Shown here: positions 45,455 to 63,790 of the stretch, piece after piece
How the letters are laid out: the number at the start of each line of letters is the position of its first letter
Numbering within the stretch: the stretch's first letter is position 1
From: Aminobacterium sp. MB27-C1
GTDB taxonomy: Bacteria; Synergistota; Synergistia; Synergistales; Aminobacteriaceae
Assembly (NCBI RefSeq): GCF_030908405.1
Contig: NZ_CP133089.1
Coordinates: forward strand, 620,001-684,000
Direction: 5' to 3'
DNA length: 64,000 nucleotides
Translations under genes and position numbers: made by a program
The notes under the pieces: generated by a model
Database searches by the model: none
Seen by the model: the letters and a program-made list of their open reading frames with translations, nothing else
What the model was told of the DNA's origin: nothing

Positions 45455-45495
45455 GAAAGAAATTAATTTGTGAAGTTTTAATATAAAAAAACGTG

Positions 45496-45530
45496 TAACA
45501 CTTGAGCGCCGGTGAGCTCAAGTGTTAAAT
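45496..45530 (+). repeat. attC-like or terminator-like hairpin 2
   Basis: TAACACTTGAGC (45496-45507) is a perfect 12-bp complement of GCTCAAGTGTTA (45516-45527), ending in the core GTTAAAT. It is shorter and more perfect than classical attC sites, so a simple hairpin is possible. It lies just before the next intact gene. Confidence 0.45.
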
Positions 45531-45541
45531 GCAAAAGGAGC

Positions 45542-46867
45542 ATGGTGGATATTTTTAATAGTCGAGAAATTGCAATTGGCTTGTGGCTGTTAGCATTTTC
45601 AGTTTATATCTATTTGTCTCCCAAAGTGGCCGAGGTCAGAAAATCATTTAGACATTTATTATCTGTGTTTTTTGTAAAACAGATTTTATTGGTGCTCGGT
45701 TTGATGGTTGCGTACATGGTTACTATGGTTTACTTCCTATCTGAATTAGATTTATGGAATGTTGAGCAGATCAAAAACACCATATTTTGGTTTGTGTCAG
45801 TGGGCTTTATGTCTCTGTTCAAGATTGAAACTATAAAAAAGGATAGAAGCTTCTTCAAACACTCAGTCATAGACAATTTGAAGTTATTGGCAATCTTTCA
45901 ATTCATAGTTGGCTTTTACACGTTTACACTTTGGATTGAAGTTCTACTCGCACTTGTTTTGGCATTGATAGGGGCTATGTTGGCTATTACTGAAAGTGAC
46001 AAAAAATATCATCAAGTAAAATCGCTACTTGAATATTTTTTATCGTCCGTTGGCATTATCTTGATTGTTTATTCTTTATATATGCTGGCTACCAATTTTG
46101 GTGAATTTGGTAATGAAAGGACTGTATATGATTTCTTTGTTCCTCCATTGTTAACTCTTTGCTATTTGCCATTTATATTCGCCATGCTCGTTTATTCTAC
46201 ATATGAGCAAGTATTTATCCGCCTACAGTTTTCCATTAAAAATAAAACTTATAGAAATTTGGCAAAACTATACGCCATCATATTCTTCAATATAAGGATG
46301 AGCTTGCTTGATCGCTGGTCATTTCATATCGCTAGGGAAAATATCGAGTCACACGCAGATTTGATAGATTCTTTTCGGCACATTCATAAAGTGAGGAAAG
46401 CGGAACGAAATCCGAAGGATGTACCAATAGACCTTGGATGGAGTCCATATCATGCCAAGGAATTTATTTCAAGCAAAGGGCTGAGTACTGGTTTCTATAA
46501 TCGCGTATTCGAAGATGAATGGTTTGCATCATCTCCAATGGAAGCGTTTGGCGATGTCATTATCCCAGATAATGTTGCTTACTACGTTGAAGGGTCTGAG
46601 GAATTAGCAAATACTTTAAAACTGATAGTCAGTGTGAATGACGCGACCAGATCTCAACAGGCACGACGAAAATTGTTGGAACTCGCTGAAGTATTGAGTT
46701 TGTCTAGCTTAAATAAGCCTCTGTCCGAAGATATGGAGGACGCTATTGTTGAAGGGAAGCCATATTCTGAAAACACTGAGGGTAAGATTATTTCGTTGGC
46801 TGTAGAAGAATGGCCAAACCATAGATTCAATGGATATGATCTTAAATTTGTCATATCAAGCATTTAA
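45542..46867 (+). CDS. Hypothetical polytopic membrane protein
   Basis: A 441-residue protein with about six membrane segments in the first 240 residues (for example WLLAFSVYIYLS, ILLVLGLMVAYMVTMVYFL, VLLALVLALIGAMLA) and a soluble C-terminal half (about 250-441). No family is recognised. The start is ATG 45542 or GTG 45545 directly after AAAAGGAG. It is the only intact long gene between two attC-like sites, so it has the form of a complete gene cassette. A membrane-effector role in defence is only a guess. Confidence 0.65.
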   Translation: MVDIFNSREIAIGLWLLAFSVYIYLSPKVAEVRKSFRHLLSVFFVKQILLVLGLMVAYMVTMVYFLSELDLWNVEQIKNTIFWFVSVGFMSLFKIETIKKDRSFFKHSVIDNLKLLAIFQFIVGFYTFTLWIEVLLALVLALIGAMLAITESDKKYHQVKSLLEYFLSSVGIILIVYSLYMLATNFGEFGNERTVYDFFVPPLLTLCYLPFIFAMLVYSTYEQVFIRLQFSIKNKTYRNLAKLYAIIFFNIRMSLLDRWSFHIARENIESHADLIDSFRHIHKVRKAERNPKDVPIDLGWSPYHAKEFISSKGLSTGFYNRVFEDEWFASSPMEAFGDVIIPDNVAYYVEGSEELANTLKLIVSVNDATRSQQARRKLLELAEVLSLSSLNKPLSEDMEDAIVEGKPYSENTEGKIISLAVEEWPNHRFNGYDLKFVISSI

Positions 46868-46931
46868 CAGGTGCTGCCTCCGGATGCCAACATCGCTACG
46901 TTTCATTGCACCGGTGAGAGCGGTGTTATGT
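46862..46931 (+). repeat. attC-like recombination site 3
   Basis: Outer TAAC (46865-46868) with GTTA (46925-46928), inner CCGG pairs, and a GTTATGT core; about 70 bases, with mismatched bases between the paired boxes. It overlaps the stop of the membrane protein gene. Confidence 0.55.
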
Positions 46932-46967
46932 GGTTAATGAATCATTGTTATTGATCCTAGCTTACAA

Positions 46968-47760
46968 ATGAAATCAGGTTATCTTTATGTTTTAGTTCAC
47001 CCGTCCGATTCAGACCTTTATAAGATCGGACAAACTGCTTGTTACCCAGAGGAACGATTGGCTGAGCATAATTGTAACGACGAAACATACACGGGACAGG
47101 TAGTCAAAGAGACTGTCAGAAATAGAATATTAAAACGTACATTGCCGTTCCTGATCCATATTGAGCCGAAAAGGTTTTTGGGGTAGCAACGCCTTTGGCA
47201 GATATCCCGTTCCGACGAGAATTTAATTATGTTAGAAGTATGGTGTTTGGGAAAGCTAGCTTTCGATGCATGAATGGCCATGAATGGCGGACAAGATGTG
47301 CTCTTGTAGCAGATGGTGAAGGTTGTCCGCTGTGTTGTGGTATCGGCGGCAGAAAACAAGAAGAAGTTTGGCAAGCGGCAAAACTAGGTTATATTTGTCT
47401 GTTGACACACCCTGATAAACCCGGGGTTATAAAAATTGAACTGACATATAACACGTAAGAACAATGATATGAAGAAAATTTCTGGGGAGACGAGGAGGTA
47501 CATCGCTGGCGATTTTCTGAGGAACTCGTTTTAGCTGAAACAATAATTTGGAAGTTGCTAGGCCAGTCTCTGTCCAATGATCGCGAACCAATTAAAAAAT
47601 TTAAACGTAGCAGAACAGACATTCCGTGACTTAATTCTACAAATGCATCGCGTGAATACTTGGCTGGAAAGAGCCAAAGAATACGTTCGCAAGACTGACC
47701 GAACTAAAAAGAAAAAGGTTAGTACACATAACAAATCATTCCACCGGACAATACATGCGT
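46968..47760 (+). pseudogene. GIY-YIG nuclease-type gene, frameshifted
   Basis: The start MKSGYLYVLVHPSDSDLYKI-GQTACYPEERLAEHN is a clear GIY-YIG (T5orf172-like) beginning. The sense then passes through other frames: a zinc-ribbon-like stretch with CMNGHEWRTRCALV and GCPLCCG, then KLGYICLLTHPDKPGVIKIEL, then EENFWGDEEVHRWRF, and finally FRDLILQMHRVNTWLERAKE. At least three frame changes show it is inactive. It forms one cassette between attC-like sites 3 and 4. Confidence 0.7.
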
Positions 47761-47788
47761 TTTTGCCGTTGAATTCAAATGTTAGAGC
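47727..47788 (+). repeat. attC-like recombination site 4
   Basis: Outer TAACA (47729-47733) with TGTTA (47780-47784), inner CCGG/CCGTTG-type pairing, about 62 bases. This is the most attC-like of the set. Confidence 0.65.
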
Positions 47789-47825
47789 TTGAGGAAACGA
47801 TTGTGGAAAAAACAGGAGTAAAGCT

Positions 47826-48492
47826 GTGGTTGAGCGTTACGACGATGTAGTTCGTGAATATATCGATTTTGTAAACGAGCAAGTGGGTACCTACATGGAT
47901 GCTTTGGCGGGATTTGCTGGACACTACACTAGAGTGCAGAGACAAGTTCACCGCATATCGCGACCGGGTTGGAAAGCGTCAAGAAAAGGGCAAAACTGTC
48001 GTTGTTTACGCAAGTTACGAAGATCCAAGCAAACCAGGCATCGTTCACAACCGAATCGTCCGCGCTGATACCTATCTTGAAGCCAACTCTCCAGGCGGTT
48101 CGAATGAGCAACGCCTTTCCCGAGCAATTGTGATTTTTTTGTTTACTTACTGGGAAGATGAAATACGGCCTCGCCTAGCTGCCGCAAAAAGCATCCCGAT
48201 CAATGAAATTAAACCTGATATCATGGGTGATCTCAGAATATTGAGACATGCAATCTTGCATGCCAAGAGTAATATTCGTCCCGATGAGCACAGGCGTTTG
48301 AAAGTTGTCGGCTCAAGGTTCCCGCCGAGCACTTTAATTCACATTTCTTATGACGACATGCATCAATTGTTTGTACTTATCAAACAGGACTGTGCTCGAC
48401 TAATATTTTCGTGGCTTGGTGTCAAGGATGGGGCCATATCGCCTGGTCAGCTTGTAGATATTCATATTCAAAGGGTAACAAATGATCTCTAA
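47826..48492 (+). pseudogene. Hypothetical gene with HEPN-like motif, frameshifted
   Basis: GTG 47826 opens MVERYDDVVREYIDFVNEQV to about 47935, where the sense moves to the frame of 47899-48492 (ECRDKFTAYRDRVGKRQEKG to QRVTNDL). Joined, it would be about 220 residues, with a C-terminal segment LRILRHAILHAKSN containing an Rx4H motif (RHAILH). One frameshift separates it from an intact gene. Its stop lies inside attC-like site 5. Confidence 0.6.
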
Positions 48493-50681: not shown

Positions 50682-51398
50682 TCAAATTCCTTTTCTTGGA
50701 GTTCCTGTATAAAGCGTTACTTTCCCCACAATATTGAAAAGTCCCAGTTCTATTTCTTCTTTTGTGAAGAGCATAGGTTTATATTGAGGAGCAGCAGAAC
50801 GAATTTCAATAGATTCATCCTTTTTGTTGAAATAGACCCACTTTATAGCCCATTCGTTTTGTAAACCAAAGCATACCAGAGCAACATCTCCGTCGTAGAC
50901 TGACTCGGCTGGATTTACTACCACCGTGCTACGATCTGGAATTCCGGCTCCCTCCATGCTGTCTCCCTCTACTAAGATAGCAAAGGGTTTTTTATCGACA
51001 TCTACGGAAATTGTTCCTACGAGATTGGAAGGTAGGAATACCGTTTTTTGTGCGTTTATATATATACCTGTCATGCCTCCATTTCCGACACCTGCGCAAG
51101 CGATTGCCGTTGGATCAAGTACAGGAATTTCTATCAAGTTATCAAAGCTTCTTATGGAATCTTTACGGACATTCGCTTCGCTAAGTGGGTTAGGATCGCT
51201 GGTTTCTCCCATAAGGTAGGCCACAGTAGTGTTTAAGACAGCTGCAAGCTTGATTTTGATTTCATCAGAAGCTTCATTTATGCCTTTTTCCCAGCGATAA
51301 ATCGTGGTGGGGGTCGTATTAAGTTGCTTGGCGAGTTCTACCTTAGTCATGCCAGAACGCTCTATTGCAGAGCGCAGATTGTCTCCAAAAACACTCAT
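50682..51398 (-). CDS. LexA/CI-type S24 repressor of the tail cluster
   Basis: A 238-residue repressor: N-terminal XRE HTH (MTKVELAKQLNTTPTTIYRW, about 17-36), a cleavage-type Ala-Gly in ACAGVGNG, and an S24 peptidase fold with catalytic Ser in EGDSMEGAG and Lys in WAIKWVYF. Such proteins cleave themselves when RecA is activated, so the system would be SOS-inducible like PrtR of R-pyocins or phage CI. It is divergent from the tail genes, with operator-like repeats between them. Confidence 0.88.
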   Translation of the reverse strand: MSVFGDNLRSAIERSGMTKVELAKQLNTTPTTIYRWEKGINEASDEIKIKLAAVLNTTVAYLMGETSDPNPLSEANVRKDSIRSFDNLIEIPVLDPTAIACAGVGNGGMTGIYINAQKTVFLPSNLVGTISVDVDKKPFAILVEGDSMEGAGIPDRSTVVVNPAESVYDGDVALVCFGLQNEWAIKWVYFNKKDESIEIRSAAPQYKPMLFTKEEIELGLFNIVGKVTLYTGTPRKGI

Positions 51399-51430
51399 AA
51401 GATCACCACCTAATTTAATAATACATGAAG

Positions 51431-51522
51431 CATACGAAAAGTGTTATAACGGTTTGCGTATATATAATAATACATAAAGCGTATTTTTACCATTGACCAT
51501 ACGAAATTAGTATGATAATCTT
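51431..51522. promoter_or_regulatory. Operator array and rightward promoter
   Basis: CATAC-N7-GTATG at 51498-51514 is a clear dyad; related half-sites are CATACG 51431-51436, GCGTAT 51456-51461 and 51479-51484. TTGACC (51494-51499), 17 bases and TAATCT (51517-51522) form a promoter whose spacer is exactly the dyad, so the repressor would block it. Confidence 0.7.
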
Positions 51523-51691
51523 CGGTCACGTTCAATTCTCTGAAAAACTTTTAATAACTGAGCTTATTAAGGGTATTAACGTCAGTAAGTATATTATTTA
51601 TAAATACGAAAATGGTATGGTCAGAATGAATGGAGATGTTTCCAAAAAGCGAAGAGCGTACTTTATGTGTATTTCTAATAGGTCTTTTTGA
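51512..51691 (+). CDS. Doubtful 59-codon frame with HTH-like look
   Basis: A frame from ATG 51512 reads FSEKLLITELIKGINVSKYI then YKYENGMVRMNGDVSKKRRA, similar in style to a small HTH protein. The ATG lies inside the predicted promoter, so only a later start (for instance ATG 51617) could be used and would give a very short product. Kept with low confidence. Confidence 0.25.
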   Translation: MIIFGHVQFSEKLLITELIKGINVSKYIIYKYENGMVRMNGDVSKKRRAYFMCISNRSF

Positions 51692-51706
51692 AAAGGAGGG
51701 TGTTAT

Positions 51707-52201
51707 ATGAATGATATGAAGCGTCTAGCGGCTATTATAGATTTACTTGTTACTTACCATCCGTCGGGCATAATGATTTTGTTGGGAGAGCGTCCGTCTC
51801 TTTCAGATGTAGAGTGGTTTGAACTGACTCAATATCTTCATGAGAAAGGAACCACCAATACGCGTGTAGATACCTCTCTTAACCCAGATGGTTTTTTCTC
51901 AAATATTTCGAAGGGCAATCTTATTACGTCGTTTCTTGAAAGTATAGGTGGTTGGGAAAATGTTGTTTCAGCTGCTTGTAGTTTTAGAAAGGTTTTTCCT
52001 ACAGATTGGGATATGTTTATAGATCACGTCAGATATATAGAAAATCCTTTCTCTTCAAGACTCTACAGGGGGAGCATGTTAGCACGTATCGCAACAAAAT
52101 ACTCAGTTGATCCCAAAACCATAACGAGACGGCGTAAGACAGTGCCAATGGCTATAGCTCGTGAAGCAGTAGGATGTTTTCAGTTAGCTATTTCAGGGTA
52201 A
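51707..52201 (+). CDS. Candidate Mor-like transcriptional activator
   Basis: A 164-residue soluble protein. The C-terminal half (SIGGWENVVSAA to about 150) ends in a helix-turn-helix-like LYRGSMLARIATKYSVDPKTITRRRK, and its spacing recalls the Mor/C activator domain of Mu-like phages. This match is from memory and weak. It follows the repressor-controlled promoter with a strong RBS (AAGGAGG), the right place for an activator of the tail operon. Confidence 0.5.
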   Translation: MNDMKRLAAIIDLLVTYHPSGIMILLGERPSLSDVEWFELTQYLHEKGTTNTRVDTSLNPDGFFSNISKGNLITSFLESIGGWENVVSAACSFRKVFPTDWDMFIDHVRYIENPFSSRLYRGSMLARIATKYSVDPKTITRRRKTVPMAIAREAVGCFQLAISG

Positions 52202-52250
52202 TAGAAGGAGTTATTGAAATTCAAAGTCTCTGATAATCCGACAATGATCC

Positions 52251-52290
52251 GTTAATATTCCACTGTTAATCCTATAAAAGCTGTTAAAAT
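52251..52290 (+). promoter_or_regulatory. Possible activator-dependent promoter of the tail operon
   Basis: GTTAAT at 52251-52256 and 52265-52270 and GTTAAA at 52283-52288 form direct repeats; TAAAAT (52285-52290) could be a -10 but there is no good -35. That would fit activation by the upstream gene. Confidence 0.35.
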
Positions 52291-52327
52291 ACTAGCATAG
52301 AAAAAATATGAAAAACCCAGACAGGCT

Positions 52328-52672
52328 TTGAAAGGCCCCCCAGATGTTGGAAAAGAATCCAACTTTTGGGGGGCTGAACATTTTCCTGTAAGGATAAAAG
52401 TAAAGGGGACGGGCGAGCATTATTCGTTCGTTCCCTTTTCTTTTGGGAAGGAGGAAGCAGCTACGGCTAGACGTTATGTTCTCTGGGGAATACCCGAGGG
52501 AAAAGGTATGCGTATAGGCATGTCGGATGTACGATGCTCTCCTCTCCCAATTGGCGCTGAAATTATTACGTGCGTGGATTTTTGCGATCTTCGCATTATG
52601 CGACGTTGGTGTGAGAAGAGAGCAAGGAGAGGATGGTCTATAGATCGGTTGAGGCAAGCATGCGATGGATAA
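52328..52672 (+). CDS. Hypothetical phage-type protein
   Basis: The frame from TTG 52328 gives 114 residues; the true start is unclear because a strong hairpin (52335-52374, arms GCCCCCCA-GTTGGA) overlaps the first codons. The body (YSFVPFSFGKEEAATARRYV to RARRGWSIDRLRQACDG) is well formed, but I do not recognise it. It lies 54 bases before the tail genes and could be a regulator or tail accessory. The hairpin lacks a T-run. Confidence 0.5.
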   Translation: MKGPPDVGKESNFWGAEHFPVRIKVKGTGEHYSFVPFSFGKEEAATARRYVLWGIPEGKGMRIGMSDVRCSPLPIGAEIITCVDFCDLRIMRRWCEKRARRGWSIDRLRQACDG

Positions 52673-52726
52673 GCAAGAGACAACCAGTATTAAATAATCT
52701 TATTAAAGAAAGGAGGCTTTCAGAAA

Positions 52727-53197
52727 ATGAATGGTCTTGTTGATTCGATTTGTGCATTTCTAAAAACTGTTGTTTGCGACTACTCTCTTGAAACAAAAGA
52801 AAAGACCGCAAGAGCTCCTCAGGTAGTTGCAGGAGGATTTTCGATAGACCCAACAAATATTCCTCAACTTCCGTATGTGATTGTGCGTGGGTCGGAAGGT
52901 AAAGATACGGAGGGGCGTGCGACCGCTGTTGTGAAAATACTGGTTGGTACATATACAGAAGATTCAGCCGGATTCCGCGATGTGCTGAACATTATAGAGA
53001 GAATACGTATTGCTTTCGGAAAACAGCGTGTTTTAAACGGGAGATATAGGATTGAATATCCTTTCTCGTGGCGAATGATCGACGAACAACCCTACCCGGA
53101 GTGGAAGGGGGAGATTACGACAACTTGGGAAGTTCCACTTCCCAGGGAGACACTTTCAATAAAAGAGGAGGCCACGATTTATGGCGAAGGGTTCTAA
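52727..53197 (+). CDS. Tail terminator/completion-like protein
   Basis: A 156-residue protein with LPYVIVRGSEGKDTEGRATA, KILVGTYTEDSAGFRDVLNI and ERIRIAF, the style of phage tail terminator proteins that sit at the top of a tail. AAAGGAGG precedes ATG. A terminator is needed also by headless tails. It overlaps the next gene by 17 bases. Confidence 0.55.
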   Translation: MNGLVDSICAFLKTVVCDYSLETKEKTARAPQVVAGGFSIDPTNIPQLPYVIVRGSEGKDTEGRATAVVKILVGTYTEDSAGFRDVLNIIERIRIAFGKQRVLNGRYRIEYPFSWRMIDEQPYPEWKGEITTTWEVPLPRETLSIKEEATIYGEGF

Positions 53198-53432
53198 AAA
53201 AATAGTCAAAGTAACATATTGCGGCCCCAGCATCCCAATGCTGGGGCTTTTGCATGGCTCCACATTCATAGGGGGAGTGCCGGAACAAATAAAAATATTG
53301 GCATCAGATAACCCCTTTCTCAAAAAACTCTTTGTTAAACCGGAAGAGGTCGGAGCCGCTTTGGTGTCTATTTCTACGCATGGAACCGTTCTGTATTCCC
53401 TTTCAGAGCGGGCAAAAAAATTATCTATATAA
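53181..53432 (+). CDS. Small tail-cluster protein, function unknown
   Basis: An 83-residue protein (KIVKVTYCGPSIPMLGLLHG, then ALVSISTHGTVLYSL). No family recognised. It is translationally coupled to the gene before it and directly precedes the sheath gene. Confidence 0.6.
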   Translation: MAKGSKKIVKVTYCGPSIPMLGLLHGSTFIGGVPEQIKILASDNPFLKKLFVKPEEVGAALVSISTHGTVLYSLSERAKKLSI

Positions 53433-53447
53433 ATGAGGTGAAAAAGT

Positions 53448-54914
53448 ATGAGTTATTTCCATGGAGTAAGAGTTTCTGAAATTCCTACAGCGATTGTGCC
53501 GCCCGTGAGACTCGATAGTCCCGCTGTAGTCATAGGAACTGCACCTGTGCATATGAGTCTTGATGGAGTTGGGAAGACGAATGTTCCAATTCTTTGTTAC
53601 TCATATAAAGAAGCTGTTGAGGCTCTCGGCTATTCTGCCGATTGGGAAAATTATTCTTTGTGCGAAGCCATGTACACGTTCTTCGCTCTTTTCGGTGTAG
53701 CACCAGTCGTTTTTGTAAACGTTCTTGATCCTTCTATCCATAAGGTATCTGTTTCTGCCGAAGCTGTCAGTTTGGGTGAGAATGATAAGGCTACTTTGAA
53801 GGAGTCAGGTGCTTTGCCCAAATCTGTTGTGGTGAAGAGTCAGGCTGGAGATACGACATATGAGCCTAACAAAGACTACATCCTTTCTTTTGATGACGAT
53901 GAGAAGCTGGTAATTACTCGCGTTGCTACAGGGACGATAGAGGCTTCGGCAACACTGACAGTTTCTTACGACAAACTTGATCCAACAGCTGTTAAAAACA
54001 CAGATATTGTAGGTGGTTACGATGTGTCTACCGGTCAATACACAGGTCTTGAACTTGTGGAACAGGTATTCCCGAAGTTTAGGCTTGTTCCGGGCATGCT
54101 ATTGGCTCCTGGCTGGAGCGATGATACTTCCGTAGCATCGGTTATGGCGGCTAAAACAAAGAATATCAATAGCGTTTTTAAGTCTATTACTCTTGTCGAT
54201 ATTCCCGTCGATGCAAACTCAAAATATTCCGATGCACCAGGTTGGAAGACAACAAATAACTTTGTTCATGAAAATATGATCACATGTTGGCCGAAGATCA
54301 AGCTGGGTAACGCTGTCTATCATCTGAGTACTCAGGTGGCTGCTTTGATGATGCAGGTTGATGCTGGAAATGAGGGGATTCCTTATATAAGCCCTTCAAA
54401 CCATCTTCTACAGATGGATGGAGCGACGATTGGCGATGCCAGTGAGGGCAACGAGGTAAACCTGACCCTTGATCAGGCAAACTATCTGAATAGCCAGGGT
54501 ATTGTTACCGCTTTGAATTTTGTCGGCGGTTGGAAATGCTGGGGAAACCGCACTGCGACATATCCAGGCGTTACCGATGCAAAAGATTCTTTCATTCCTG
54601 TAAAACGCATGTTCTACTGGAAGGCCAATCAGCTGATCATGACATATTGGCAGAAAGTTGATGCCCCTACAAATCGTCGATTGATCGAGACTATCGTCGA
54701 TAGTGAGAATATCAATCTTAACGCCCTTGCAGCACGAGGAATTCTGGTAGGCAACCAGAACAGAGTAGAGTTCAGATCAGATGAAAATCCGTTGACCGAT
54801 TTGATCGATGGAATCGTTCGTTTCCACTTGTTTATGACTCCACCTATTCCTGCTCGGGATATTGAGTGGTTAATAGAGTACGACGTAAGCAATTTGAACT
54901 CTCTTTTTGATTAG
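53448..54914 (+). CDS. Contractile tail sheath protein (P2 FI-like)
   Basis: A 488-residue sheath protein. The N-terminus MSYFHGVRVSEIPTA and the C-terminal part with NRTATYPGVTDAKDSFIPVK, RMFYWKANQLIMTYWQKVDA and RLIETIVDSENINLNALAARG are typical of P2-type sheaths. The sheath contracts to drive the inner tube through the target envelope. Its presence shows a contractile (myovirus or R-type) tail. Confidence 0.93.
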   Translation: MSYFHGVRVSEIPTAIVPPVRLDSPAVVIGTAPVHMSLDGVGKTNVPILCYSYKEAVEALGYSADWENYSLCEAMYTFFALFGVAPVVFVNVLDPSIHKVSVSAEAVSLGENDKATLKESGALPKSVVVKSQAGDTTYEPNKDYILSFDDDEKLVITRVATGTIEASATLTVSYDKLDPTAVKNTDIVGGYDVSTGQYTGLELVEQVFPKFRLVPGMLLAPGWSDDTSVASVMAAKTKNINSVFKSITLVDIPVDANSKYSDAPGWKTTNNFVHENMITCWPKIKLGNAVYHLSTQVAALMMQVDAGNEGIPYISPSNHLLQMDGATIGDASEGNEVNLTLDQANYLNSQGIVTALNFVGGWKCWGNRTATYPGVTDAKDSFIPVKRMFYWKANQLIMTYWQKVDAPTNRRLIETIVDSENINLNALAARGILVGNQNRVEFRSDENPLTDLIDGIVRFHLFMTPPIPARDIEWLIEYDVSNLNSLFD

Positions 54915-54927
54915 GAGGTGACCTTGG

Positions 54928-55449
54928 ATGAATATAATTCCAGAAAAGCTGATTAACTTTAGAGTTTTTAATGAAAGCAACGATTTGATTGGTGTAGCCG
55001 ATGTGGACTTGCCTTCCCTTGATTCAATGACGGAAACAATTAAGGGGGCGGGAATTCTCGGAGAAATAGACTCTCCGATTCTCGGCCATTATGGAAGTAT
55101 GAGTCTGACTATTAATTGGAGAACTGTTACAAGCCATTCAGCTGCATTGTCTGTTCCTCAGGCCCATCAGCTTGATATGCGCGGTTCGATTCAGGTTCAT
55201 GACGCTGCTACAGGAAAATATACTTCTGAAGCGTTAAAGGTTGTTTGTGGTGCGGTTCCTAAAAAGACAGGACTTGGAAAACTTAACGTTGGAGCTTCTG
55301 GAGAGGTAGCCAATGAGTTTGAAGTTTTGCATATCAGGGTATGGCTTGAAGGGGAAGAGCTTATTCAGATAGATAAGCTTAATGGCGTATGTAAAATCAA
55401 CGGTAAAGACGTTCTCGCCAAGGTAAAAGCAGACCTCGGCCTTGCATAA
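54928..55449 (+). CDS. Tail tube protein (P2 FII-like)
   Basis: A 173-residue major tail tube protein: MNIIPEKLINFRVFNESNDL, LPSLDSMTETIKGAGILGEI, GHYGSMSLTINWRT and the end YKNGKDVL-like CKINGKDVLAKVKADLGL. It forms the inner tube below the sheath. GGAGGTGA precedes ATG 54928. Confidence 0.92.
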   Translation: MNIIPEKLINFRVFNESNDLIGVADVDLPSLDSMTETIKGAGILGEIDSPILGHYGSMSLTINWRTVTSHSAALSVPQAHQLDMRGSIQVHDAATGKYTSEALKVVCGAVPKKTGLGKLNVGASGEVANEFEVLHIRVWLEGEELIQIDKLNGVCKINGKDVLAKVKADLGLA

Positions 55450-55461
55450 GGGGTGAATTAT

Positions 55462-55776
55462 ATGGAGACAATAAAGTTAACGAAACCTGTGTCTTACGCG
55501 GGAAAAGAGTATAAGGAGTTAGAACTTGACCTTGAAGGTTTGAGTGGTGCTGACATGATTGCCGCAGAGCAGGAATGTCTGGTTCTTCAGCAGGTTGTTT
55601 CGCCAGTGGCGGAGTTTTCCAAAACCTATTTGAGTAGTTTGGCCGCCAGAGCTGCAAAGGTTGATTACGAGATGATCAAGCAGCTTCCGGTAAGAGATTT
55701 TACCTACGTTACTCTCGTGGTGCAAAATTTTTTGCTGGATACGGGAGGCCCTCGGGAAGAACTATTAGGCGCTTAA
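55462..55776 (+). CDS. Tail assembly chaperone, E-like
   Basis: A 104-residue protein (LTKPVSYAGKEYKELELDLE, ending LLDTGGPREELLGA) in the position of P2 gpE between tube and tape measure. ATG 55462 is chosen over a GTG at 55453 because AAGGGGTG (55448-55455) is its RBS. Near its end lies the T6G slippery site that allows fusion to the E' frame. Confidence 0.82.
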   Translation: METIKLTKPVSYAGKEYKELELDLEGLSGADMIAAEQECLVLQQVVSPVAEFSKTYLSSLAARAAKVDYEMIKQLPVRDFTYVTLVVQNFLLDTGGPREELLGA

Positions 55777-55913
55777 TATTGCGAGTAGCTCAATACACCC
55801 GAACAGGTGTTGATTTCTGGCTACGAATGCCTCTCGAAGAGTTGATGTTATGGCTAGACGACATATCTCAAATGGTTCAGGAAGGTGGTGGCAGATATGG
55901 GGAAAGTTTATGA
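55462..55913 (+). CDS. E-E' fusion by programmed -1 frameshift
   Basis: TTTTTTG at 55728-55734 is in the phase T-TTT-TTG, the same heptamer used by P2 for its E/E' shift. The -1 frame is open from there to TGA 55911-55913 and includes FWLRMPLEELMLWLDDISQM, similar to the P2 GpE' family (..M.LEELM.W...). Such fusions, together with the unshifted form, act as chaperones on the tape measure. Coordinates span both frames. Confidence 0.75.
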
Positions 55914-57723
55914 GCTTGCAGTTCATTTGGATTCGAAGATATCTAGCAGCTTGGGGAAATCTTTCATTTCTACCGCTGCCAATATCGAAAGGCTCGATAA
56001 AAGGTTACAGGGGCTGAATGACAGACTCGGTAAAATCAATGCTTTTAGAAAATTAAAGAAAGATACTCATGACACACGTTTGCAGTTTATTCTGGCTCGT
56101 TCTGATGCAAAGCTTTTATCTAGAGAGATGGTGAAATCTGAAAAACCGGCGAGGACCCTTCAAAATAGATTCGGTTCAGCGCAAAAAAAAGTGGAAAGCT
56201 TGCAAGTAAAACTTATTGATCAGCGCAAAGAACTTGTTCAGCTTGAAGGAGCTCTCTTAACTGCCGGAATTTCGACGAAAAGCTTTAAAAGTGAGCAGGA
56301 ACAAATTACAAAGCAGATAGACAAGACAACGAAGATTCAAAAGAAGCTACAGGCGATACAAGGAAAGAAGCAAGCCAATCAGCAAAAGAGGTCTCAGTTA
56401 CGAGAGCGAGTGGCGGATATTGAAGTTTTGGATTCATTGATAGCGGCTCCTGTCAATGCTGCAAAGAAAGCTCAAAATGCAGAGATAAAACTTCCAACTG
56501 CTGTTAATGAGAAGCATAACGATTCAGCTATGAATGAAGCGCTCTCAGTCATGTCGAAGTACAACGTCAGTCCTGAAGAAAGAGGGGGCGGAGAAGGGGG
56601 TAATGCCTCTCAAAACTCGGCCTCTCTGTCTGCTTCTATTGGAAAAATGTTGTTGCCAGGAGTAAATAATGTGGCATCTTTGGAAGCAAAAAGTGCAGAG
56701 TTTCTTACTGAGATGACAGAGAAATTTCCCTTCCTCACGAATGCTCTTTCGACAACAGCTGTTGCTTGGGTCAAGCTGAACAAAGCTGCGACTATTGGAA
56801 GTTATGTATGGACATTTGTACAGGATGGAGCTCTTGGCATTTCAGCAGTCTTCACTAACGTTCGTGCATCTATCTTGCTGTTAAGAGGTGGTCATGAGGC
56901 ACTTATGGCTTCTCAGCTGAAAGGAACTGCAGTTGCTAAGGCTGTTACTTTTGCACAGAAAGGCTGGCAAAAGGCTCTCAATATAGGGAGAACAACGAAG
57001 CATATAGCCATGTTGGGAATAATGAAGGTAAAAACAGTAGCCCTTGCAATGGCTCAGAAGGCAGCGGCGGCGGCACAGTGGCTTTTTAACGCGGCCTTAT
57101 CGGCTAGCCCGATTGCTATTGCTGTTATAGCAGTGTCAGGACTTATAGCTGCAGGAATAGCCCTATATAAAAATTGGGATAAAGTCTCAAGCTGGTTTTC
57201 TGGCTTTTGGAACACGATGAAGGCTGGGTTTGGAGCGTTGGCGAGTTGCATGGTTGAACCTTTCAGATCGGTTTTTGAATGGCTTGCCGAGAAAATAGAG
57301 TGGTTCAAAGAAAAATGGAACGGTCTCAAAAAGTTTATAGGCTTTGGGGGCGATGAAGAGAGCCAGAAAGAAGAAGCGGATCTGGCCTGGGATGTGTATT
57401 CTTCAGTTCCTGGATATGCTTCTGGCGCTATTGCGAGGTCTCCACATTTGGCGGTGGTTGCAGAAGAGGGCGGCGAGTCTATTATCCCTCATGCTCCACA
57501 CAGAAGAAAAAGAGCCATAAATTTGTGGGAAAAGACAGGAGACATACTTGGAGTAAATAATTCAGAGGGTTCTATCGATTTGACTTTTGCTCCGAATATT
57601 ACAGTTTCGGGTAACGGAAACGCTACTGGCGATCTTGAAATGGTCATGAAAAAAGCTTGTGATGATCTTATGCGACGAATTGAAAGTATGCGTCGTGATG
57701 AACGGAGGTTGAATTTTTCATGA
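55897..57723 (+). CDS. Tail tape measure protein
   Basis: About 608 residues, short for the family, suggesting a short tail. The N-terminal half is coiled coil rich in Lys, Gln and Arg (RLDKRLQGLNDRLGKINAFR, QKKVESLQVKLIDQRKEL). Hydrophobic segments lie near 395-430 (ALSASPIAIAVIAVSGLIAA), and the C-terminal part carries SPHLAVVAEEGGESIIPH. ATG 55897 is preferred over GTG 55885. The stop overlaps the next ATG (ATGA). Confidence 0.9.
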   Translation: MGKVYELAVHLDSKISSSLGKSFISTAANIERLDKRLQGLNDRLGKINAFRKLKKDTHDTRLQFILARSDAKLLSREMVKSEKPARTLQNRFGSAQKKVESLQVKLIDQRKELVQLEGALLTAGISTKSFKSEQEQITKQIDKTTKIQKKLQAIQGKKQANQQKRSQLRERVADIEVLDSLIAAPVNAAKKAQNAEIKLPTAVNEKHNDSAMNEALSVMSKYNVSPEERGGGEGGNASQNSASLSASIGKMLLPGVNNVASLEAKSAEFLTEMTEKFPFLTNALSTTAVAWVKLNKAATIGSYVWTFVQDGALGISAVFTNVRASILLLRGGHEALMASQLKGTAVAKAVTFAQKGWQKALNIGRTTKHIAMLGIMKVKTVALAMAQKAAAAAQWLFNAALSASPIAIAVIAVSGLIAAGIALYKNWDKVSSWFSGFWNTMKAGFGALASCMVEPFRSVFEWLAEKIEWFKEKWNGLKKFIGFGGDEESQKEEADLAWDVYSSVPGYASGAIARSPHLAVVAEEGGESIIPHAPHRRKRAINLWEKTGDILGVNNSEGSIDLTFAPNITVSGNGNATGDLEMVMKKACDDLMRRIESMRRDERRLNFS

Positions 57724-57920
57724 CGACATACACAACTATTCAAGGTGACACATGGGATTGGATTGCAAAAAAAGTATATGGGAACGAACGTTTCATGCAT
57801 CATTTGATAGAGGCGAACCCCAAACATCATGACAGAGTCTTTTTCCCTGCGAATATAACTATTCGTGTACCAGATGTGGATGTAACCCGATTTGCTATCT
57901 TGCCGCCATGGAAGAGGTGA
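57720..57920 (+). CDS. Tail protein X (LysM-like)
   Basis: A 66-residue protein with TTIQGDTWDWIAKKVYGNER and NPKHHDRVFFPANITIRVPD, the P2 gpX-type LysM fold. It joins the tail tube to the D/V hub. Confidence 0.9.
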   Translation: MTTYTTIQGDTWDWIAKKVYGNERFMHHLIEANPKHHDRVFFPANITIRVPDVDVTRFAILPPWKR

Positions 57921-57924
57921 TATC

Positions 57925-58944
57925 GTGGAAGCAAGAAGAGCCTATATATCGTTGATTTATGCAGGAGTGGATATCTCTCGGGATATCCACTCTTTTTTGT
58001 TGGATTTTTCCTTCACTGACAATGGTCATGGTAAGTCGGATGATTTGCAGATAACCCTTGAAGACAAAGACGGTCTATGGCGGGGGCCGTGGTTTCCTTC
58101 AAAAGGGGCAAAAATCAAGGCTGCAATAGTGACTAAAAATTTCAGCGGAGATGGACAGTCCATAACATTGCCCTGCGGAACATTTTCTATAGATGAGATT
58201 GATGTAAGCGGATCTCCGGGCACATGTCAGATCAAAGGAGTCTCAGCCCTTGTCTCATCTGATATCAGGCGTGAAAAGAAAACGCGCGCTTGGGAAAATA
58301 TCAGCTTATCTGCTATTGCCAATGACATAGCCAAACATGGAGGCATGAAATTGTTTTGGGAAGTTGCCTCTGACCCTCTTTATGAAAGACGCGACCAGAA
58401 TGAAGAATCCGATATGGAATTTTTAAAGCGAATGTGCGAAGACGCAGGAGTGTGTCTGAAGATTGCAAATGAGAAGATCATTATCTTCGATGAAGCTGAT
58501 TACGAGTCGAAAGCGGCAGTATGTACGATAGCGTCTGATTCCAGCCTTTTGTCCTGGTCTTTTACCTCTCAGGCGGAGGCCACCTATCGGGCTTGTCGCG
58601 TGAAATGGCACGATGCTGTAACAAAAACGGATATTGACTATACCTACGAACCACCGAATGCGCCTAAAGTTGGGCACACTCTCATGGTTAACGAGAGAGT
58701 TGAAAATATTGCCGAAGCTATCACGCTCGCCAAGAAAAAGTTACGACTACAAAATAAAAATGAAGTGACAGGAGATATATCGGTTCTTGGGAACGTCAAT
58801 CTTTCTGCAGGGCTTAACGTAGAAATTTCAGGTTTTGGAGTATTTGATGCGAAGTATGCCATAGATACAGCTTCACACTCGTATTCGCAAGGAAGTGGGT
58901 ATGTAACCAGACTCTCTTTGCATCGTGTTTTGGAGGGATATTAA
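57925..58944 (+). CDS. Late control D / baseplate hub protein
   Basis: A 339-residue hub protein of the P2 gpD type (phage late control D): YAGVDISRDIHSFLLDFSFT, LEDKDGLWRGPWFPSKGAKI, RRDQNEESDMEFLKRMCEDA. GTG 57925 has GAGGTG at 57914-57919. It joins the spike (V) to the tube. Its stop shares one base with gene V. Confidence 0.88.
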   Translation: MEARRAYISLIYAGVDISRDIHSFLLDFSFTDNGHGKSDDLQITLEDKDGLWRGPWFPSKGAKIKAAIVTKNFSGDGQSITLPCGTFSIDEIDVSGSPGTCQIKGVSALVSSDIRREKKTRAWENISLSAIANDIAKHGGMKLFWEVASDPLYERRDQNEESDMEFLKRMCEDAGVCLKIANEKIIIFDEADYESKAAVCTIASDSSLLSWSFTSQAEATYRACRVKWHDAVTKTDIDYTYEPPNAPKVGHTLMVNERVENIAEAITLAKKKLRLQNKNEVTGDISVLGNVNLSAGLNVEISGFGVFDAKYAIDTASHSYSQGSGYVTRLSLHRVLEGY

Positions 58945-59348
58945 TGATCTGTGTGGGAAAGGTTTGTTCCATTGATCCAGCGCACTGTACGGTAAGGGTA
59001 ATCTTCGAAGATAGAAGCAATCTCGTTAGTTATGACCTGCCTGTTTTAGTTCAACAGACGAAGATAAATAAAGATTTTTACATGCCGGATGTTGGAGAGC
59101 ATGTAGTATGTGTCTTTCTTGACAATGGTTCCGAGCAAGGTTTTGTGTTGGGGGCTTTTTACAGCAAGGAAGATAGAGTTTCTTCCGTGGTTAATAGCGA
59201 AAAGCGCAGAATTGATTTCGGAGATGGGTCCTGGCTTGAATTTGACAGAAGCACTGGAGCTTACATAGTTCATATAACAGGTGATTTTGTAATTGAAAGC
59301 GAGAAGCATGGGGTTATTAAAGCGTCACGGTTGGATCTGAATCCATAA
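58944..59348 (+). CDS. Baseplate spike protein V
   Basis: A 134-residue gpV-like protein with an N-terminal OB fold (GKVCSIDPAHCTVRVIFEDR, PVLVQQTKINKDFYMPDVGE, VVCVFLDNGSEQGFVLGAFY) and a short beta-helix tail. It forms the central spike and carries the PAAR tip. It is about the shortest usual size for the family. Confidence 0.9.
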   Translation: MICVGKVCSIDPAHCTVRVIFEDRSNLVSYDLPVLVQQTKINKDFYMPDVGEHVVCVFLDNGSEQGFVLGAFYSKEDRVSSVVNSEKRRIDFGDGSWLEFDRSTGAYIVHITGDFVIESEKHGVIKASRLDLNP

Positions 59349-59360
59349 GGAGGGATATAT

Positions 59361-59654
59361 ATGCCAGCAGTTACTCGAATAGGAGACATGGGGACTGGTC
59401 ACGGCTGATGGCCTTCTCGGTCCTCAGTGGGGGGCTCGTCTGATGTTTTTGTAAATGGAATTGCCGTTCATCGTCAAGGTGACGGCTGGGCTGCGCATAC
59501 GTGTCCTGACATTCCTGAAACCCATGCGTCTGTATTGGCTTCCGGATCATCGACAGTCTATGTTAATGGAAAGCAGATTGGCCGTGTCGGAGATCCTGTT
59601 GCGTGCGGTTCCAGCGTAGCTACGGGCTCTTCCAATGTTTTTGCGGGGGGATAA
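59361..59654 (+). CDS. PAAR spike-tip protein with in-frame TGA (possible Sec)
   Basis: ATG 59361 follows AAGGAGGG and encodes MPAVTRIGDMGTGHG; codon 16 is TGA (59406-59408), then the frame goes on as WPSRSSVGGSSDVFVNGIAV, HRQGDGW, TVYVNGKQIGRVGDPVACGS to the stop at 59654 (97 codons if read through). Homologues I recall have Cys at this place (GHGCWPxR), near the His/Cys metal site of the PAAR tip. A possible hairpin 3' of the TGA has GGTCCTC/GGGGGCT arms and a GU-bearing loop about 18 bases on, as in bacterial SECIS elements, but three pairs are wobbles. The alternative is a nonsense mutation, with restart at GTG 59427. Confidence 0.65.
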
Positions 59655-59656
59655 AT

Positions 59657-60055
59657 ATGATAGGAAGTTTAGGACCTGTCGTTTTTCAGGTATCGACAGA
59701 GAGTGTCAAAACGATAAACGACCTTGAACGGGGGTGTGAGGCTCGGTTTTCCGAGCATACTGTTGCACAGGGCAAGCCTCTTTTGGAATTTTTGGGGCCA
59801 GGGCTCGATAGTGTCAGTTTTTCAATGCGATTCGATCTTTCTTGGGGAATGAATCCAAGGATAGAAATCGAAACTTTACGTGCTGTTCGCGATAACGGAG
59901 TTGCTCAACTTCTCATAATAGGAGGAATTCCTCTCGGGCTATTTGTAATAACCGGAATAACGGAGTCGTGGAAAACCATAAATCCTGCAGGAGTTTTAAC
60001 TGTAGCCACAGTAGCTATTTCTTTGAAGGAGTATGTTAAAAATGCTGGACTTTAA
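59657..60055 (+). CDS. Tail protein U (P2 GpU-like)
   Basis: A 132-residue GpU family protein: MIGSLGPVVFQVSTESVKTI, EHTVAQGKPLLEFLGPGLDS and AISLKEYVKNAGL fit the P2 GpU pattern. It would cap or complete the tail. In P2 U follows the tape measure; here it comes after the spike genes, a rearranged order. Confidence 0.82.
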   Translation: MIGSLGPVVFQVSTESVKTINDLERGCEARFSEHTVAQGKPLLEFLGPGLDSVSFSMRFDLSWGMNPRIEIETLRAVRDNGVAQLLIIGGIPLGLFVITGITESWKTINPAGVLTVATVAISLKEYVKNAGL

Positions 60056-60362
60056 TATTGCAGCAAGCCTTGATGGGGTAAATTTTTCCCCGAAAAGTGA
60101 AGTCGAGGAGATATTGCAAAACGTTAAAACTATTCTTTTTACTGTGCGCGGGAGTGTGCCTCTCGATAGGGATTTTGGCATTAGTGCTGATTTAGTTGAT
60201 TCTCCAACTCCTGTTGTGAAGGCGCGGTGTATGGCTGAGATCGTGGAGGCTATATCGAAATATGAGCCAAGGGCCAAAGTGGCGGCGGTCTCTTTCTCGG
60301 GAGATAGTGATGGACGTTTAATTCCGAAAGTGAAGGTGAGAATTCGTGCTGACATTACCTAA
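60042..60362 (+). CDS. Baseplate wedge protein W (gp25-like)
   Basis: A 106-residue GPW/gp25 family lysozyme-fold protein: NVKTILFTVRGSVPLDRDFG and VEAISKYEPRAKVAAVSF. I prefer ATG 60042 (11 bases after GAAGGAG) over ATG 60033. It overlaps U by 14 and J by 17 bases. Confidence 0.88.
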   Translation: MLDFNIAASLDGVNFSPKSEVEEILQNVKTILFTVRGSVPLDRDFGISADLVDSPTPVVKARCMAEIVEAISKYEPRAKVAAVSFSGDSDGRLIPKVKVRIRADIT

Positions 60363-61458
60363 TATAGATTTTACGGAAAAATCTGCGGCTGACGTTGAGG
60401 CCGAGATCATAGCGAAATATGAACAAAAGGCAGGCCGGATTCTTGCAAAGGGGGATCCGGTCAGACTTTTTTTAGAGGCTGTAGCGGCTGTTATAGCGCA
60501 ACAGCGTGTATTTATTGATTTTTCTGCGAAGCAAAATTTGCTGGCTTATTCAACGGGAACCTATCTTGATCATCTTGGTGACAGGCAGGGGGTTGCGCGG
60601 CTTCCTGAGCAGTCGGCAATGACCACAGTCCGTTTTTCGTTGCCAATGGCACAACCTTTTCCTGTGTCTATCCCTCAAGGAACTCGTGTTACTCCTGGAG
60701 ATGGGCTCTTTTTTGCTACGCAGAAAGCCCATGAAATCAGTTCTGGAGAGACTTCTATTGAGGTAGTGGTTACGTGCGTTCAAAGTGGTTCTATTGGAAA
60801 CAACTTTGCAATAGGGCAGATTAACAAACTGGTAGACCCTCTTCCATATATTGCGAAAGTAGAGAATGTAACACCTTCTGCAGGTGGTGTTGACGAAGAA
60901 ACAGATGACAATTTCAGACTGCGTATAAGGCAGGCTATGGAAAAGTACTCTGTTGCAGGGCCTCGACTTGCCTATGATTTCTGGGCACGTACTGCACACC
61001 AGGGAATAATTGACGTGTCGGTAAGATCTCCTGCTGCGGGAGAAGTTGAAATAAGGCCGTTGATGGAGGGAGGAGAACTCCCCAGTTCCGAAATTCTTGA
61101 TGCCGTTTTAAAGATTTGTTCAGCTGATGACGTGCGCCCACTGACAGATCGGGTATCGGTTTTAGCCCCGGAACGGGTTGCCTATTCTATTGATATTACA
61201 TATTTCATAGATCGCGTAGAAGCTATCTCTATTTCTGCGATACAGGCTCAGGTGGCAACTGCCGTAGGGGAATATATTGCATGGCAGAAAGCGAAATTGG
61301 GCAGAGATATTAACCCCTCGGCGCTTATCAAGCGTGTGATGGATGCCGGGGCTAAGAGAGTTTCTGTAACATCTCCAGTTTATACGGCATTAGAGTCATG
61401 GCAAATTGCTCAGGAAGATAGTGTGACGGTAAATTATGGAGGACTTGAAGATGGCTAG
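60346..61458 (+). CDS. Baseplate assembly protein J
   Basis: A 370-residue P2 gpJ-like wedge protein: AVAAVIAQQRVFIDFSAKQN, YLDHLGDRQGVARLPEQSA, GGVDEETDDNFRLRIRQAME and RDINPSALIKRVMDAGAKRV. Start GTG 60346. It forms the baseplate arms with W and I. Confidence 0.9.
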   Translation: MLTLPNIDFTEKSAADVEAEIIAKYEQKAGRILAKGDPVRLFLEAVAAVIAQQRVFIDFSAKQNLLAYSTGTYLDHLGDRQGVARLPEQSAMTTVRFSLPMAQPFPVSIPQGTRVTPGDGLFFATQKAHEISSGETSIEVVVTCVQSGSIGNNFAIGQINKLVDPLPYIAKVENVTPSAGGVDEETDDNFRLRIRQAMEKYSVAGPRLAYDFWARTAHQGIIDVSVRSPAAGEVEIRPLMEGGELPSSEILDAVLKICSADDVRPLTDRVSVLAPERVAYSIDITYFIDRVEAISISAIQAQVATAVGEYIAWQKAKLGRDINPSALIKRVMDAGAKRVSVTSPVYTALESWQIAQEDSVTVNYGGLEDG

Positions 61459-62107
61459 CGCCGGGTTGAAAGACCTTATTCCCGCAAGTATTGCAATAGA
61501 TTCGCAGGTGAAATCCGCAACTTTAGCGTTAGATGACCAACTTGCTGATATTAATTCTCATTTGATTCAAACCATTATTTTGCCACGGGTTGATGAACTG
61601 TCTCAAGAAGTATTAGACCTCTTGTTGTGGGAGTTTCATATCACCCTTGATGAGGGTGCGGGGTTGGCCGTTTCGGTTGAAGAAAAAAGAGATCTTGTTA
61701 AAAGGGCTGTTGAGATACATCGTCTGAAAGGAACGAAAGCGGCGCTGCTTCGCATTTTCGAAATGCTCTCCATGCGTGGAGTTATTTCCGAATGGTATGA
61801 ATACGGTGGGGAGCCGTACAAATTCAAGGTAGAGATTCTTGAGCTTAGCGAGCGTGGACTTGATGAGCAGACCTATGTGCTTTTAGAGCGACTAATAGAT
61901 GAGTACAAGAACGTTCGTTCGTGGCTTGACGAATTGAATGTGTATCTTACCGTGCGGGGTGCGGTTCCTAAAGTTGCAATGGTGAGTTTGTGCGGGGAAG
62001 AGATAACAGTCTATCCGTATAACGTTACGGAACTTGAAAACGTTGCTTCTATCCGGTGGGCGCTGGGATATCAAGCAGTTGAAACAGTTACAGTTTATCC
62101 ACTTTAG
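61451..62107 (+). CDS. Tail protein I
   Basis: A 218-residue P2 gpI-like baseplate protein: PRVDELSQEVLDLLLWEFHI, KRAVEIHRLKGTKAALLRIF and KFKVEILELS. ATG 61451 follows GGAGG (61438-61442) by eight bases and overlaps the J stop, so I prefer it over ATG 61436. It links the fibre to the baseplate. Confidence 0.87.
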   Translation: MASAGLKDLIPASIAIDSQVKSATLALDDQLADINSHLIQTIILPRVDELSQEVLDLLLWEFHITLDEGAGLAVSVEEKRDLVKRAVEIHRLKGTKAALLRIFEMLSMRGVISEWYEYGGEPYKFKVEILELSERGLDEQTYVLLERLIDEYKNVRSWLDELNVYLTVRGAVPKVAMVSLCGEEITVYPYNVTELENVASIRWALGYQAVETVTVYPL

Positions 62108-62117
62108 GAGGTGTGAT

Positions 62118-63581
62118 ATGGCTGAAAATTTTTATACTATTTTAACTAATGTGGGGAAAGCAAAACTTGCCAACGCCCAGGCGTTGGGAACGAAAGTGGA
62201 GTTTTCTTCCATAGCTGTTGGAGATGGGGCTGGAAACTACTACGAACCTGCCGAATCGCAAGCAGCTCTTAAAAATGAGGTTTGGCGTGGGCCGATAAAT
62301 CAGATAAAAACGGATGAGGCAAATCCGAATTGGATTGTTGTTGAAGTGGTGATTCCTACCACGACGGGAAGCTTTACAGTTCGGGAAGCTGGAATTATTG
62401 ATTCTGAGGGAGACCTGATAGCTCTGGGCAAATACCCGGCTACATACAAGCCAGCTCTGGCTGAGGGATCTGGAAAAGATCTTTATATCCGGATGATTTT
62501 AGAGGTGTCGAACGCGTCTGCAATTACGTTGAAGATTGACCCTGCTGTTGTGCTGTCAACACGTGGATATGTCGATGAGAGCATTGCAGAGCATAACACA
62601 GACCCCTTGGCGCATGGGAATCTGCCTTATCAGAAAACCTCGCAAAAAGATCAACCGGGTGGGTATGTTGGGTTAGATGCAGAGAGAAAAATAAATAAAG
62701 ATAGGTTGCCTGACGGTACTGGCATTCCAGTTGGTTTTATCGGCATTTTCTTGGCTGAAACACCGCCTGCTGGGTGGCTTGAGTGTAATGGTTCTTTAGT
62801 CAGTAGAGAAACATATCCGGAATTATGGGCATATGCTCAAAGTTCTGGAAACATTCTAGCGGAAGATACAACGGCAAATGAAGGACACTTCACAGTGGGG
62901 AATGGCCTTACCACTTTCAGGTTACCTAACCCACAAGGAACGTTTTTCAGGGTACTCGATAAAACCCGCGGAGTTGACCCCGATTCTGGCAGAGTTGTTG
63001 GTAGTGAGCAGATGGATGCTTTTAAAAGTCATACGCATTTATTAGGGACCACGACAGAAACTCTTGGGAACGCGGTTTATGTACTAAGAACACAAATGGG
63101 AAGCTCCTTATTATCTTCTGAGAGTGGAATTACAAGTACTGGTGATTCTGAAACCCGCCCACGCAACACTGCTATTCTCTGTTGCATTAAGGCTTTTGAC
63201 GGAGCGACCAACCAAGGGCTAATAGATATTACAGCTTTAGCAAATGAACTAAACAATAAAGTTGATAAGGTAGATATCAAAGCTCCGGGAGATGCTCCAA
63301 TGTATGTTTGTCGTGCGTGGGTAAATTTTGATGCCTCATCAGGAACTCCCGTCATAAAAAACAGCGCGAACGTTTCTAGCATTGTGAAAATAGATGTTGG
63401 GAAATTTACAATAAATTTTCAAACACCAATGTCAACTGGAACCCCTTCTGTTAGTGCTATTTGTCGGTTTCTTGGTTCTGCTCTTATATTATCCACAGAA
63501 AATAAAGTTGATATATTTACAACAAATTACAATGCTGTTCCCGTCGATGTTGAAAATAATTGTGTAGCTGTATTTTGCTAG
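62118..63581 (+). CDS. Tail fibre protein with collar domain
   Basis: A 487-residue fibre protein. The N-terminus (FYTILTNVGKAKLANAQALG, then AVGDGAGNYYEPAESQAALK) is a P2 gpH-like/DUF3751 attachment domain. A tail-collar domain follows (GFIGIFLAETPPAGWLECNG, FRLPNPQGTFFRVLD, about 230-330). The C-terminal part is unlike other families and probably binds the target cell surface. It decides host range in phages and killing range in tailocins. GGAGG precedes ATG 62118. Confidence 0.9.
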   Translation: MAENFYTILTNVGKAKLANAQALGTKVEFSSIAVGDGAGNYYEPAESQAALKNEVWRGPINQIKTDEANPNWIVVEVVIPTTTGSFTVREAGIIDSEGDLIALGKYPATYKPALAEGSGKDLYIRMILEVSNASAITLKIDPAVVLSTRGYVDESIAEHNTDPLAHGNLPYQKTSQKDQPGGYVGLDAERKINKDRLPDGTGIPVGFIGIFLAETPPAGWLECNGSLVSRETYPELWAYAQSSGNILAEDTTANEGHFTVGNGLTTFRLPNPQGTFFRVLDKTRGVDPDSGRVVGSEQMDAFKSHTHLLGTTTETLGNAVYVLRTQMGSSLLSSESGITSTGDSETRPRNTAILCCIKAFDGATNQGLIDITALANELNNKVDKVDIKAPGDAPMYVCRAWVNFDASSGTPVIKNSANVSSIVKIDVGKFTINFQTPMSTGTPSVSAICRFLGSALILSTENKVDIFTTNYNAVPVDVENNCVAVFC

Positions 63582-63592
63582 GAGGTTTTAAC

Positions 63593-63790
63593 ATGCAAGT
63601 AATTTTATTTCCTATAGATGAAAAAGTTGCCGTAATGACACCTGTCGGAGATTCTCTCACAACGGCAAAAAAAGATGTACCGGCAGGAGTTCCTTTTATT
63701 ATCATAGATTCAACTGAATTACCTACTGCACCTCAAGAAACATGGGAAGTTGATTTTTCAAATCCCGATGGTTATGGGGGTGAGGCGTAG
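63593..63790 (+). CDS. Small fibre-associated protein
   Basis: A 65-residue protein (MQVILFPIDEKVAVMTPVGD, ending WEVDFSNPDGYGGEA), with GGAGG at 63581-63585 before ATG 63593. No family is recognised firmly; position after the fibre suggests a fibre assembly factor. Confidence 0.65.
   Translation: MQVILFPIDEKVAVMTPVGDSLTTAKKDVPAGVPFIIIDSTELPTAPQETWEVDFSNPDGYGGEA

Follow-up and report, generated by a model that had tools for sequence, protein, structure and literature searches.

A contractile-tail PAAR tip encoded by Aminobacterium sp. MB27-C1 is a probable selenoprotein

Within a window of 64,000 nucleotides from Aminobacterium sp. MB27-C1 (the whole stretch of DNA that we analysed, to which coordinates refer unless a locus is named), positions 59361-59654 read as an intact PAAR spike-tip gene with a single in-frame TGA at codon 16. 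Judging from the sequence evidence assembled here, the UGA at 59406-59408 is very probably decoded as selenocysteine (Sec), which would make the tip of a contractile tail a selenoprotein. This reading had been put forward in a preliminary description made from the letters of the window, and it is now supported by the sel genes of the host, by exchange of TGA with Cys codons among relatives, by constraint on the codons beyond the TGA, and by a hairpin that passes published rules. The whole explanation that we favor, in which a selenoprotein PAAR cone sits on the spike and carries an apical Cys/Sec pair, is also likely, and we set out the evidence for each of its parts below.

The gene lies on the forward strand and comprises 97 codons including Sec16, from an ATG at 59361 to a TAA at 59652-59654, behind a directly readable ribosome binding site (AAGGAGG, 59347-59353, same strand). 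Its frame holds 15 codons up to the TGA and 81 beyond it, and the gene 3′ of it begins at 59657, confirming the arrangement first described: ribosome binding site, ATG, interrupted frame, normal stop, and tight spacing. On read-through, the product would have 97 residues (MPAVTRIGDMGTGHG-U-WPSRSSVGG...). The proposed PAAR identity also held up, as the product matched Pfam PF05488 above cut-off (52 bits in a genome search and 51 bits in a second scan) and PHROG 281 (E 1.7e-34), and its AlphaFold model (mean pLDDT 97.6) found T4 gp5.4 as its best PDB match (TM 0.91), with T6SS PAAR proteins matching as well. The codons beyond the TGA are under strong constraint, with a dN/dS of about 0.06 (0.198/3.09, or ~0.064) between the window gene and the same-genus copy, L011.

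The PAAR gene is part of a contractile-tail module at 53448-62107 on the forward strand, which encodes a sheath, a PHROG 55 protein in the tube position, a chaperone, a tape measure, a baseplate hub, and a D-like protein, followed by the spike, PAAR, wedge W, and J and I-like proteins. Directly before PAAR is a gpV-like baseplate spike (58944-59348, forward; PHROG 6142, E 1.6e-13; PF04717 at 19.8 bits, below the cut-off of 23.8), which the PAAR tip would cap by analogy with known spikes. The next tail gene (59657-60055, forward) matches PHROG 76, and a tail fibre gene follows at 62034-63581 (forward). Two small genes precede the sheath (52727-53432, forward; PHROG 2581 “virion structural protein” and PHROG 4089). 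Further upstream are, on the reverse strand, a phage-type repressor whose C-terminal part is UmuD-like (50682-51398) and, on the forward strand, an ORF that may encode a regulator (51707-52201) and that by eye looks similar to the one preceding the terminase genes of the same-genus prophage. The element extends over 50682-63790 and into the right flank (L230:1-3368), and its lysis genes comprise an M15 peptidase (endolysin) and a holin-like gene. A sheath search of the host genome with PF04984 gave no match; because the PHROG model for sheath proteins does find one, PF04984 is uninformative here.

From the repressor at 50682 through the right flank, no terminase, portal, or capsid gene was recognized. 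Tail genes without recognized head genes suggest a headless element, which would be tailocin-like or derived from a prophage by loss of the head genes; a tailocin is more probable here than a complete phage. The original reading of a “phage-tail” tip thus stands as far as the surrounding contractile-tail genes go, but a complete phage is the less likely source. In the related element of the same-genus genome G001, large upstream ORFs were read by eye as terminase, portal, and protease/capsid (L232). Beside the window element, 36372-48492 holds a run of uncharacterized ORFs, including kinase-like and RuvC-like ones by eye; a tmRNA gene lies at 35646-35997 (Rfam, 190 bits), and a tRNA at 34983-35057.

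Checking the host for Sec machinery, as the preliminary description had advised, we found in its genome (2,427,830 bases, one contig) selB at 361.9 bits, above the curated cut-off in a profile search, selD at 330.9 bits with an in-frame TGA of its own, and a tRNA-Sec at 73.2 bits with anticodon TCA. A SelA-like ORF of 466 residues, recognized by eye, directly precedes selB. A genome without sel genes, which would have spoken against Sec, is therefore not what we observed. The host selD (L120) is itself a selenoprotein gene, and in its hairpin, AGGUCC[GGC]GGACCU, the loop is likewise placed at 17 nt.

Published rules for bacterial SECIS elements specify a loop of 3-9 nt, a stem of 4-16 bp, and a distance of 16-37 nt from the UGA, with a G in the first two loop positions and an MFE of at most -7.5 (PMC13188914). 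The hairpin downstream of the window TGA, GGUCCUC[AGUG]GGGGGCU (59419-59436, forward), passes these rules with 7 bp, -8.3 kcal/mol, and a loop (AGUG, 59426-59429) starting 17 nt past the TGA, in good agreement with the GU-containing loop about 18 bases downstream that had been drawn earlier. It was matched by 1.3% of synonymous recodings in a narrow register and by 20% in any register from 16 to 37 nt, and the free 45-mer of the window folded no better than shuffles (z -0.76). The window hairpin therefore lends modest support to Sec as one of a set of evidence, not alone.

Across the family, the loop lay at exactly 17 nt in 7 of the 8 codon-16 genes compared, with loops AGUG, GGUU, GGUC, or GGC. 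At -4.6 kcal/mol, the hairpins of L011 and L124 were too weak for the published energy limit; L125 lacked a hairpin at its first TGA, and L162 had a weak one. Of 18 TGA sites, 13 passed the SECIS rules, compared with 68 of the 243 Cys sites (p 2e-4). The synonymous-shuffle p for all sites combined was 0.0013. Base-pair covariation among 7 sequences was not clearly above shuffles (78/500) and not significant. L174, a Cys48 gene related to L159 and L173, still has a hairpin; its loop is AGGAG at 29 nt, which is also the case in L160 and L175.

Most close relatives of the window gene have TGC or TGT as codon 16, and some have TGA. The TGA is not private to this strain: the PAAR copy in G001 (1,980,592 bases) keeps it at 75% amino-acid identity, other genes share it, and further relatives have TGC or TGT, which is the alternation that the preliminary description had suggested looking for. 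TGA occurs at codon 16 in the window gene, L032, L124, L011, L129, L130/L139, L131, L132, and L125; at column 48 in L024, L156, L157, L159, L160, L162, and L186; and at the Cys before His55 (column 54) in L125, L151, and L156. In total, 19 TGA codons were found in 17 distinct PAAR genes, every one in column 16, 48, or 54, and the genes come from Synergistota, one Bacillota metagenome-assembled genome (MAG), and viral contigs, including some of 200-284 kb. Exchange was seen at close range in one viral pair, with Sec48 in L159 and Cys48 in L174 at 91% identity. L125 (776-1063), a PAAR gene on a viral contig of 275 kb, has two TGA codons, one per Cys pair, and a strong hairpin at the second only.

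How these genes were found affects how they can be read. Seven of the 17 (the window gene, L011, L139, L024, L151, L032, and L186) came from TGA-blind searches, and all have their TGA at Cys columns. The remainder were found by TGA-containing patterns, which are biased in position but not in PAAR identity, so the TGA position in most viral examples is not independent evidence. These patterns also returned loci that are not PAAR and were rejected: 4 of 12 for the codon-16 pattern (L126 and L133-L135), 5 of 10 for the codon-48 pattern, and L224-L226 for the codon-54 pattern. A second codon-54 pattern gave no matches. Isolate phages yielded many listed PAAR relatives of Cys type or other types, and 188 genomes from the order of the Bacillota MAG yielded no further PAAR relative.

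In a TGA-blind protein search of 188 Synergistota genomes, 5 of 52 PAAR-type matches had an in-frame stop (in the host genome, G001, G132, G122, and G074), and in all five this was a TGA at a Cys column, with no TAA and no TAG. The occurrence of in-frame TGA at Cys columns of Synergistota PAAR genes is more than chance. SelB was above the curated cut-off in all 6 cellular genomes with a TGA-PAAR gene, and among 40 PAAR-bearing Synergistota genomes such genes were present in 5 of the 23 with SelB vs. 0 of the 17 lacking it; by our own arithmetic, this association is borderline by itself (one-sided p about 0.05). On the viral contigs, a search for tRNA-Sec gave sub-threshold matches only, probably ordinary tRNAs.

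The positions of these sites relate closely to the predicted metal site. In the alignment, His14, His46, His55, and Cys82 fall where gp5.4 and 4jiv have their counterparts, in columns that are invariant or at least 90% conserved, and together they are consistent with the zinc site of three His and one Cys reported for such tips. Position 16 is two past His14, position 48 is two past His46, and position 54 is directly before His55, and none of these columns has Cys or Sec in gp5.4, 4jiv, or 4jiw. From the alignment, the Sec/Cys columns appear to adjoin the zinc ligands of solved tips and not to be those ligands themselves. The earlier suggestion that the TGA replaces a Cys next to a metal-binding His is thus borne out in that it adjoins the predicted ligand His14, but the canonical metal-ligand Cys aligns to Cys82.

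Cys and Sec at these columns also go together. In 141 sequences, columns 16 and 48 both held Cys or Sec in 94, neither did in 43, and only 4 were discordant, and columns 47 and 54 covaried among 95 representatives (p 2.8e-11). The window gene combines Sec16 with Cys48, and six others (L024, L157, L159, L160, L162, and L186) have Cys16 with Sec48. L151 has Cys47 with Sec54, and L125 has both Sec16/Cys48 and Cys47/Sec54; L156 is a fragment, and column 16 is outside it. These pairings make a Cys/Sec pair the rule wherever it is visible. The tree of this short protein was poorly resolved, with good support for 15 of its 130 inner branches, and few supported events therefore stand behind independent co-losses of Cys.

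We propose the following sequence of events. Host SelB and tRNA-Sec would read the UGA at 59406-59408 as Sec, aided by the hairpin at 59419-59436, a step that is strongly supported. By homology, the 97-residue product would then fold into a PAAR cone that caps the gpV-like spike and has a predicted zinc-type site built from His14, His46, His55, and Cys82. Sec16 would lie near Cys48, forming an apical Cys/Sec pair, most likely as a selenenylsulfide staple that closes the tip. Other lineages would have Sec in the partner position, Cys48, or in the second pair (47/54). An Se-S bond forms at a lower redox potential than a disulfide, and Sec may be favored for this reason in the reducing cytoplasm of strict anaerobes. 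The staple itself, given Sec, is a reasoned guess from the pairing, and we consider it about evenly balanced between right and wrong.

The main alternative accepts Sec but makes it an extra soft ligand of a second or altered apical metal site, with no covalent Se-S staple. The Sec sites are two past His14, two past His46, and beside His55, all aligned to zinc-site columns; zinc in an enteroaggregative E. coli (EAEC) T6SS PAAR protein is bound by two Cys and His (PMC10715212); and paired presence of Cys and Sec would equally fit shared ligands. However, the canonical His14, His46, His55, and Cys82 are kept beside the Sec/Cys pairs, so the known site needs no further ligand, and strictly pairwise covariation is more simply explained by a bond between two residues. 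We therefore regard the metal-ligand role as rather unlikely.

Readings without Sec fared much worse. The TGA could be a nonsense mutation in a decaying element, leaving a pseudogene or only a 75-residue part made from the GTG at 59427, and both the lack of head genes in the element and the GTG ORF beginning past the TGA would fit this. Yet the TGA is retained in the same-genus prophage and in other lineages, the low dN/dS extends past it, and the first 15 codons include the ligand His14 behind a good ribosome binding site. Moreover, the alignment showed just two other in-frame stops: a TGA in the TGA-recoded phage L217, at a Trp-type column, and a TAA close to where a distant match ends. Decay is consequently very improbable.

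It is still more improbable that the element or its host reads TGA generally as Trp or another amino acid (code 4 or similar). The related viral contig L217 does look recoded: ORF coverage there was 0.45 under code 11 vs. 0.92 with TGA as sense, and L217 (PAAR at 3001-3282) is probably a phage reading TGA as Trp, for which reason we set it aside from the Sec set. By contrast, TGA ends long ORFs in the window and at most other TGA-PAAR loci, where a sense reading changes coverage little, and relatives have Cys rather than Trp at the site. For L186, with no TGA-ended ORFs in the stretch examined, this is less certain. Programmed or leaky read-through by a near-cognate tRNA, giving a rare full-length tip without Sec, has a precedent in the UGA read-through known in phages such as Q-beta, but it would leave Cys exchange at three separate columns, the SelB association, and the placed hairpins all unexplained, and we give it hardly any weight.

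In open-licence papers, we found none that links a selenoprotein to PAAR, a tailocin, or a baseplate as a finding, and the words PAAR, phage, and virus are absent from two reviews of prokaryotic selenoproteins. To the extent of this literature, selenoprotein listings include no structural protein of a phage or tailocin, in keeping with the earlier impression that a Sec-containing phage-tail tip would be new. A 2025 deep-Sep screen of the MB27-C1 genome (GCA_030908405.1) gave 13 known and 0 new selenoprotein genes, with no new family, and the PAAR gene could conceivably be among the 13 (PMC12013277).

If our reading is true, tip genes of this kind are missed or cut short by standard annotation, and the element relies on the selenium supply of its host. 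It would also be a rare example of Sec in a mechanical, non-enzymatic part, and exchange of Sec and Cys at paired sites beside the metal site would offer a direct test of the extra cysteines of PAAR tips. Confirmation by protein chemistry would mean a virus-type particle with selenium at its piercing point. More tentatively, and with slightly more doubt than belief, we suggest that phages and tailocins of Sec-decoding anaerobes repeatedly put Sec at the apex of the spike that pierces membranes, always as half of a Cys/Sec pair by the metal site, where an Se-S or Se-metal bond staples the tip, and that this structural, virus-type use of Sec evolved more than once.

Compared with known systems, the candidate resembles bacterial selenoproteins such as formate dehydrogenase and the host selD in having UGA in place of Cys, sel genes, and a rule-passing hairpin, which in both the PAAR gene and the host selD is spaced at 17 nt. 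Unlike known bacterial selenoproteins, PAAR is the structural tip of a phage-type tail and not a recognized redox enzyme. It shares with T4 gp5.4 and T6SS PAAR tips (PDB 4ku0, 4jiw, and 4jiv) the fold (model TM 0.85-0.91), the His/His/His/Cys metal-site columns, and a gene adjoining a gpV/gp5-type spike, but columns 16, 48, and 54, in contrast to those structures, hold covarying Cys/Sec pairs in the Sec-PAAR family. The surrounding element is like R-type (pyocin-like) tailocins in its contractile-tail module, repressor, endolysin, and holin, with terminase, portal, and capsid not found; unlike those, it is a tailocin by prediction and may instead be a prophage whose head genes were lost.
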